The translations under genes and the position numbers were made by a program. From NCBI RefSeq assembly GCF_000359585.1, contig NZ_APMH01000015.1, forward strand, positions 1 to 50,226: 50,226 nt of DNA, given 5' to 3'. Positions within the stretch are counted from its first letter, which is position 1. Each line of letters starts with the position of its first letter. The notes beneath the pieces are model-generated. The model worked only from the letters and a program-made list of their open reading frames with translations. It did no database searches and was not told the DNA's origin. This DNA is from Clostridium tyrobutyricum DSM 2637 = ATCC 25755 = JCM 11008 (GTDB taxonomy: Bacteria; Bacillota; Clostridia; Clostridiales; Clostridiaceae). This document shows positions 6,109 to 8,157 of the stretch, piece by piece.

Positions 6109-8157
6109 TCAATTAAAAAGTTTTTTTAACTGTAAAGTATCTATAATTGGACTTTTGCATGAAAAATTCTCACATATATATACAGTAGGTTTTCCATTAA
6201 TACTTTGATAATTTCCTATAAATGAACATATATTTTTTAAATCCTTATCTGAATTTGAATATAGGATGGAAACATTAAATGGACTAAATTGTTCATTTAT
6301 TATATTCAGTACTTCTTCTGTTTCGACACTGTTATTTCCAGGTACAATTACAATTTGCCTTGTGGAAGTTTTTGAAAACAATAGTGCTATCATTGAAAAG
6401 CAATATGCCGTTGGATAACTTTCTATTTCTTTTGAAAAGTTTTTGAGCAATTTTTGTGCTCTGTCATCTAATTTGTAGTTTCCCGTTAAATGGGATAGTC
6501 TCATTAAATTTAGTGCACATACTGAGTTACCTGATGGAAGTGCTCCGTCATATATTTCCTTAGGTCTTGAGATAAGCTTTTCACTGTCATTGCCATATAA
6601 AAAGAATCCTCCATGTTTTTCATCCCAAAACAGTTTGAATGAGTCTTCAGTTAAGTCCACTGCTCTCTTTAAATATTTTGAACTATATGTTGTTTCATAT
6701 AATTCTATTAATCCCCATGTCAAAAATGCGTAATCATCTATATATCCAGGAAAGGAAGCTTCACCATCACGATATCTTGCCAGCAGACGGCCGTCTTTTC
6801 CAATAAGATTTTTATAAATAAAGTCCAGAGCCCTTTCAGCTGCTTCAGTATATTTTCTGTTTTTCAATATTCTACCGGCCATTGCCATGGCGGTTATCAT
6901 CAGGCCGTTCCATGAAGTCAAAATTTTATCATCCTTATGAGGAGGTACTCTTTTATTTCTGTAATTGAATAATTTTTTAATATAGTTTTTTATAATATCT
7001 CTATCTTCAGTAGAAATATCAGTTCCAATTAAATTAGGTATATTTTTACCATCAAAATTACCATGGGAAGTTATATTGAAGTAGAAACAGAATTTATTTC
7101 CATCTTCTTCTCCAAGTATATCTTTTATTTCATCTTTGGACCAAATGTAAAATTTACCTTCAATGCCTTCAGAATCCGCATCTTCAGCAGAATAAAAGCC
7201 ACCATTGCTTGAAGTCATGTCTCTTAAAATATAAGTTAGTATTTGCTCCGCAATTTCAGAATATATTTTTTTACCTGAGACCTGAAAGGTTTCCAAATAT
7301 GCAATTGCAATCAATGCATTGTCATATAACATTTTTTCAAAGTGAGGTACAAGCCATTTCTCATCTGTGGAGTAACGGCTGAAACCATAACCTATATGAT
7401 CGTATATACCTCCACGATACATGGATTCAAGTGTTTTTTCTACAATCTTTAAAGCGTAGTCATCTTTAGTGTTTTTCCAGTATCTCAACAAAAAGAGAAG
7501 GTTTTGTGGCGTTGGAAATTTTGGTGAGATTCCAAAACCTCCATAGTGTGGGTCAAAGTTTTCCTCTAGCTTTATAAAAGTTCTATCTAATATATCATCA
7601 GAAAATTCAATACTGGAATTTCTATTTGAAGAATCTATTGTATTTAATATGCTTTGACTTGTTTTTAATATTTCATTTCTATTGTTTTTCCAGGAATTGT
7701 TTATATATTCTAGAATTTCAATTAATCCAATTCCATGAAGATTTTTATTTTTAGGAAAGTACGTACCTGCAAAAAATGGCTCTTGGTCTGGAGTTATAAA
7801 AATTGTAAGAGGCCATCCACCGCTTCCTGTAAGGGATTGACATACACTCATGTAAATACTGTCAATATCAGGTCTTTCCTCTCTATCTACCTTTATGGAA
7901 ATAAAGTCATCATTTAATATTTTAGCTACTTCTATATCTTCAAAGCTTTCATGTTCCATTACATGGCACCAGTGGCAAGTAGATTTAGTGACCTACTAAG
8001 AATACCCAATAGATAAAAAGACAGGTTTATCTTCGAATTTTGCTTTTGCAAATGCTTCATCACACCAAGGAAACCAGTTGACTGGATTGTAGGCGTGTTG
8101 AAGTAAATATGGTGATTTTTCATTTATTAATCTATTGGGTGTATTAGTTAGGCTCAT
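6109..8157 (-). pseudogene. DUF255/YyaL (SPATA20-like) thioredoxin-domain protein, interrupted by 18-nt in-frame insertion with two TAG stops
   Basis: The full frame runs from ATG 8157 (ribosome site AGGAGGTGG at about 8162-8170) to TGA 6109. The first 53 codons give the conserved family N-terminus (INEKSPYLLQHAYNPVNW-type) ending in LSIGYS. The family then continues TCHWCHVMEHESF; here 18 nt, TAGTAGGTCACTAAATCT read on the minus strand (7998 to 7981), are inserted first. They add two consecutive TAG codons (7998-7993) without changing frame, and the remaining 610 or so codons are intact. The family has an N-terminal thioredoxin-like domain with CxxC and a C-terminal six-hairpin-glycosidase-like helical domain, function poorly known. 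A fragment could start at ATG 7959, but it would lack the CHWC redox motif and has no ribosome site. Probably inactivated recently; bypass of the stops cannot be excluded from sequence. Confidence 0.85.

Follow-up and report, generated by a model that had tools for sequence, protein, structure and literature searches.

The stretch of DNA analysed here (positions 1 to 50,226 of contig NZ_APMH01000015.1 of Clostridium tyrobutyricum DSM 2637; hereafter 'the window') carries on its minus strand a yyaL gene of the YyaL/DUF255 family, whose coding sequence is interrupted one codon before those of the active-site motif CHWC. In the window DNA the residues SIGYS are followed by two stop codons and then by VTKSTCHWCHVMEHESF. 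Codon by codon, the minus strand reads TCT (8001-7999), TAG TAG GTC ACT AAA (7998-7984), TCT (7983-7981) and ACT (7980-7978), after which it continues TGC CAC TGG TGC. The features of the locus are given below; the terms 'take-off', 'landing' and 'resume' refer to the programmed translational bypassing that we propose for this gene.

7996..8157, minus strand: first open reading frame (ORF1), which starts with ATG and has 53 codons, the last of them the putative take-off Ser codon, with TAG next to it; matches positions 1-47 of Pfam profile PF03190 (E 4e-20)
8002..8013, minus strand: 12-nt element TCTATTGGGTAT 5' of the take-off codon, with GGG 3 nt from that codon
7999..8001, minus strand: putative take-off codon TCT (Ser)
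7993..7998, minus strand: TAG immediately 3' of the take-off codon and a second TAG
7991..7994, minus strand: AGGT, a putative Shine-Dalgarno (SD)-like sequence whose GG occupies -10,-9 relative to the landing codon
7981..7983, minus strand: putative landing codon TCT
7978..7980, minus strand: resume codon ACT (Thr)
6109..7980, minus strand: ORF2, where the frame resumes; it encodes the CHWC motif (codons 7977-7966) and the remainder of the protein; matches PF03190 positions 55-162 (E 2.6e-42)

The two pieces were searched apart against Pfam. Both exceed the cut-off for PF03190 (Thioredox_DsbH/DUF255, 163 positions), which places the gene in the YyaL/DUF255 family, and since they match the two halves of the profile, a single PF03190 domain is split by the insert. 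The DNA reading and the split match confirm the 18-nt insert with two TAGs after a TCT codon that the original prediction, made from the window alone, had described; it was also right that the take-off and landing codons of this site are identical. A 21-mer spanning the insert is single copy in the host genome (3.01 Mb, 76 contigs, low GC; up to three mismatches allowed). Solved structural relatives of the downstream piece are 7tkv_A and 3ira_A.

We first searched the downstream piece against 59 relatives and read the DNA at the site. Other species of the host genus have inserts at the same codon boundary, differing in sequence and length. The search was then widened to the genus, family, order, class and phylum and to two further families (groupings of families, genera and genomes are given as codes such as f91 or G1050, and loci as L numbers). 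Inserts at the GYS|xCHWC boundary of yyaL were found at 88 loci in 81 genomes, from 23 families and 40 genera, with 80 unique site sequences; the counts below refer to these 80 sites unless stated otherwise. Uninterrupted loci in the phylum numbered 150 (148 genomes), and 13 genera contain copies of both kinds. On a tree of 226 downstream pieces the insert state needs 46 changes, 36 of them on well-supported branches. The genome G1050 has two yyaL copies on separate contigs (L339 and L342), one uninterrupted and the other with a 37-nt hairpin gap.

The numbers of 81 and 148 genomes give no prevalence, because fetching at class and phylum level took short-looking open frames first. Less biased counts of interrupted copies are 9 of 12 readable genomes in the host genus, 22 of 97 in the host family, 28 of 39 in family f91 and 8 of 33 in family f103 (G1050 is counted twice, once for each kind of copy); an interrupted copy whose downstream frame lacks a stop could escape detection. 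Among 80 loci from other phyla (three of them Bacillota by title) 78 were parsed as uninterrupted and L038 was judged so by eye; L055 was not located.

At every one of the 80 sites a Ser codon is followed immediately by a stop codon (TAG in 44, TGA in 22 and TAA in 14), and 27 sites have a second zero-frame stop within the gap. Gap length, which leaves out the take-off codon and includes the landing codon, ranges from 13 to 52 nt: 72 gaps are short (13-24 nt) and eight are long (30-52 nt). Thirty-nine lengths are multiples of three, 19 leave a remainder of 1 and 22 a remainder of 2. Because the lengths span all three classes modulo 3, the preservation of frame by the window insert, correctly noted in the original prediction, is incidental.

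The codon after which the x-CHWC frame resumes resembles the take-off codon. We required a match at two or more of the three positions, the third being compared as purine or pyrimidine; by this rule 79 of 80 sites match. The rule was built on the first batch of sites (49/49), and later batches gave 17/18 and 10/10. By exact letters, two or more positions agree at 71 sites and all three at 16, so that the identity of the two codons, TCT and TCT in the window, does not extend to the sites in general. The same score in other registers, from -9 to +3, was reached by 2 to 41 of 78-80 sites, and the highest value (41) arises because the Thr resume codon (63 of 70 unique sites in an earlier set) has its middle C in common with TCN. 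Random gap triplets used as a control matched at a mean of 17 and a maximum of 32 of 70 sites. In 20,000 shuffles of the landing codons among the first 49 sites, the observed match was never attained. A purine predominates at -1 of the landing codon (63/72 short gaps).

The second conserved component is a 12-nt element directly 5' of the take-off codon. The motif TCTATTGGGTAY is present at 62 of 72 short-gap sites, at none of the eight long-gap sites and in 2 of 148 uninterrupted genes. Taken singly, the codons TCT, ATT and GGG occur in 66, 69 and 66 of the 72 short-gap sites (in 12, 40 and 14 of the 148 uninterrupted genes, respectively). The codon bias ends abruptly at TCT; beyond it in the 5' direction, the codons for Leu, Phe and Pro resemble those of uninterrupted genes. 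Of some 36 independent pairs on the tree, about 23 show the element together with the insert and none shows the opposite. Besides the site itself, the host genome has two exact matches to the element (L309 and L310), neither with a Ser codon and stop after it, and near matches are about as numerous as with a reversed-pattern control. The uninterrupted yyaL gene of L345 (G600) still has TCTATTGGGTAC and may have lost a gap that it once had.

Most long gaps have a different candidate device. A hairpin at or adjoining the stop codon was found in six of the seven long gaps folded, and L342 shows one by eye; L238 (30-nt gap) has no hairpin. In the stems UAG lies opposite CUA or UUA and UGA opposite UCA; the partner arm thus varies with the stop codon. 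The stop-containing hairpin would appear to substitute for the 12-nt element in this class. A hairpin as a general take-off signal was also considered and rejected: the hairpin seen by eye in the window (TTAGT/ACTAA) was not significant, nor were others. Structure upstream was rejected too, the folding energy of the 60 nt upstream being nearly alike in short-gap (-10.9 kcal/mol) and uninterrupted genes (-10.0 kcal/mol).

A possible landing signal is common to both classes. Of the 69 gaps that are at least 17 nt long, 29 have GG at -11,-10 relative to the landing codon; shuffles gave 3.6 on average and 11 at most. It is found there in seven of the eight long gaps and in 22 of the 59 short gaps with a length of at least 18 nt; a further 14 of these 59, the window site included, have it at -10,-9. 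The peak of complementarity to the anti-SD sequence lies 6-7 nt ahead of landing for long gaps and 5-6 nt ahead for short ones. The SD-like sequence is a tendency and is absent from some sites; a GG lying about 9 nt ahead of the landing codon may steer landing.

The downstream part of the gene is under purifying selection, with Ka/Ks of 0.065-0.19 in 14 pairs of interrupted copies whose gaps differ within each pair, which points to a gene in use. The CHWCH codons, situated between the gap and the next Met codon, show synonymous variation alone, with the caveat that the anchor used to find the sites itself demands CHWC.

Programmed translational bypassing, in two classes, is very probably the explanation of the yyaL gap. 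Comparison of the interrupted genes demonstrates a conserved anatomy, a codon match, downstream selection and a linked 12-nt element, and lends support to the gene-60-like bypassing that the original prediction had put forward; that ribosomes actually hop is what we infer from these sequence data. A ribosome would translate ORF1 up to the Ser codon, whereupon the stop codon would enter the A site. Instead of termination, peptidyl-tRNA(Ser) would detach and the ribosome would slide over 13-52 nt (18 nt in the window), until the same tRNA re-paired, with two or more base matches, at the codon directly before xCHWC. Re-pairing at this position would yield a product with the uninterrupted family sequence.

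Several observations weigh against bypassing or against parts of this scheme. Short gaps have no folding excess (mean z -0.02 for 63 short sites; z 0.45 for the window site), so a take-off hairpin of the gene 60 type is not general. The codon rule has an exception in L279 (AGC to TGA), and nine of the 80 either fail or reach two matches by wobble equivalence alone. In-frame start codons occur in 21 of the 80 gaps (ATG in six). Pairing of the upstream element with the anti-SD sequence is weak, on average -3.7 kcal/mol versus -2.95 kcal/mol in uninterrupted genes. Because the 5' segment recombines (see below), the association of the 12-mer with the insert could partly reflect hitch-hiking.

The original prediction had regarded a recent knockout by a mobile-element footprint as the simpler reading. 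Stops and frame changes inside a coding sequence are what an inactivated yyaL would show, and so is the scattered occurrence of the insert, for which the tree of downstream parts has 36 or more changes on branches with good support. However, the boundary shared by 81 genomes, the two open frames and the purifying selection downstream argue that the insert is not a recent knockout; a pseudogene would also not explain the landing codon match, and the relaxed selection expected of it is not seen, either in Ka/Ks or, subject to the anchor caveat, in the CHWC codons. We give the pseudogene reading hardly any weight. It is also very unlikely that yyaL is a split gene, in which termination after ORF1 and re-initiation for ORF2 give two separate proteins. 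An ATG does occur in ORF2, 21 codons after the frame resumes (MEHESF...), and the start codons within gaps mentioned above could serve the same purpose. Yet initiation at that ATG, after CHWCHV, would leave untranslated the CHWC codons that are kept with synonymous changes, and in 59 of the 80 gaps, the window gap included, there is no in-frame ATG, GTG or TTG, so that re-initiation cannot yield a CHWC product there; the take-off/landing match would be unexplained as well.

Excision of the gap from mRNA by RNA processing or splicing of a new kind would restore the family sequence at any gap length, and comparative data are blind to RNA. Such a process needs no in-frame stop straight after the last codon, though all 80 sites have one, and no codon match that tolerates third-position wobble and any single mismatch, though 79 have it. 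The gap ends vary and have no common splice-site consensus, although the 12-mer 5' of the gap is conserved; splicing is, in our estimate, improbable. Stop-codon readthrough or one-base frameshifting comes to mind since GGG-UAY-NNN-stop is like the +1 site of prfB, the Release Factor 2 (RF2) gene: the E. coli site reads GGG-UAU-CUU-UGA, and the host prfB region has AGGAG-TCT-CTT-TGA-C. Gap lengths in all classes modulo 3 and the extra zero-frame stops in 27 of 80 gaps speak against it, and readthrough would insert variable residues beside the active-site motif. The probability of such a mechanism is close to nil.

The 5' part of the gene together with its gap appears to move between lineages, and we propose that it passes by local recombination. 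L003 and L005 are more than 90% identical downstream of the site and 66-76% identical in ORF1 windows, with different gaps; synonymous differences in this pair are 0.67 upstream versus 0.135 downstream. L264 and L269 have 0.20 upstream versus a dS of 1.0 downstream, and L010 and L013 are 88-98% identical near the site and about 56-88% further on. In L190, L195 and L198, from three families, 110 of 110 nt are identical through the gap and the sequences diverge soon after; their contigs end 110-130 nt 5' of the CHWC codons. This identity fits a recently shared 5' segment, with mixing in metagenome assembly as an alternative. Alike gap cores are also seen in different families, for example in L226, L166, L187 and L156 (TGTTGGTTATA..., GGTCACGAAA..., TTGTCTACTACAA); such recurrence suggests a small set of circulating gap types.

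The identical 5' segment in three genomes of different families prompted us to consider the att site of an integrative element, a candidate that was rejected. In 20 neighbourhoods (16 interrupted, 4 uninterrupted; 6.5 kb 5' of yyaL, ORFs of at least 60 aa) no ORF occurred in more than four loci, although a domain search of these ORFs was not run; an integrase near the site is unlikely.

With moderate confidence we suggest that these are laterally moving bypass cassettes in bacterial chromosomes, swapped between families with the 5' part of the gene and equipped with two interchangeable take-off devices: the upstream GGG-UAY element for short gaps and the stop-containing hairpin for long ones. 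The mobile cassette would comprise the 12-nt element, Ser codon, stop codon, SD-like GG and landing codon, would be tolerated in a conserved gene through ribosome hopping, and might invade uninterrupted sites in a homing-like manner.

How does yyaL compare with known recoding systems? The features of T4 gene 60 were taken from PMC5009743 and PMC11194080. In both yyaL and gene 60 a stop codon lies directly 3' of the take-off codon, a matched landing codon precedes the resume codon, and an SD-like sequence occurs shortly before landing (in yyaL as a tendency); in its long class yyaL further shares the hairpin at the stop and a gap length near 50 nt. By contrast, yyaL is a cellular gene with Ser rather than Gly at take-off, and its take-off/landing identity is not general; the short class, with gaps of 13-24 nt, has the 12-nt element upstream and shows no excess of folding. 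The take-off stem-loop including the stop codon, as described for gene 60, is found neither at the window site nor in the short class; the likeness originally claimed for the window therefore holds for the stop after take-off and the matching codons and fails for the folding. The N-terminal peptide of yyaL is the ordinary family peptide, present in uninterrupted genes too, which distinguishes it from the gene 60 case.

The byps of Magnusiomyces mitochondria resemble yyaL in having many short skipped gaps and accepting an imperfect take-off/landing match; two-out-of-three pairing is discussed in PMC5009743. They differ in that yyaL is one gene of bacterial chromosomes with an in-frame stop after take-off and a clear sequence context, while byps are seemingly independent of mRNA context according to that text. 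A phage-gene case described there has a short gap and a Shine-Dalgarno-like sequence 5', as in yyaL; compared by description, it differs in naming a UUA codon as key where yyaL has a stop.

The prfB +1 site is alike in that a run of G resembling an SD sequence precedes the P-site codon by three nt and a stop occupies the A site; the same text reports this 3-nt spacing for stimulation of +1 frameshifting. Differences are the one-base shift of prfB onto an overlapping codon, as against skips of 13-52 nt in yyaL, and the much weaker SD-like element of yyaL (duplex -3.8 versus -9.1 kcal/mol for the host prfB). The GGG three nt before take-off might help release in a prfB-like manner, a guess by analogy because of the weak anti-SD pairing. 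Known bypassing cases are few according to the 2016 review PMC5009743: T4 gene 60, yeast mitochondrial byps and some likely or unconfirmed ones. Our literature search, with most subscription journals and preprints outside its scope, found no earlier account of bypassing in yyaL/DUF255.

Elsewhere in the window (41510-43345, plus strand), a 611-aa ORF in a flagellar cluster is a FliR-FlhB fusion, with Pfam matches to Bac_export_1 at residues 13-246 (FliR part) and to Bac_export_2 at residues 268-607 (FlhB part).

The best reading of the yyaL sites is that they extend the logic of T4 gene 60 to a cellular gene family and add a second, short-gap design. The persistence of a gap at an active-site motif is a question that they raise. 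If bypassing is confirmed, a process so far seen chiefly in one phage and in yeast mitochondria would be common in bacterial chromosomes, and some genes filed as frameshifted pseudogenes may work. Eighty natural sites in one bacterial gene, varying in gap length, codon match, upstream element, landing signal and hairpin, would then open bypassing to comparative dissection.
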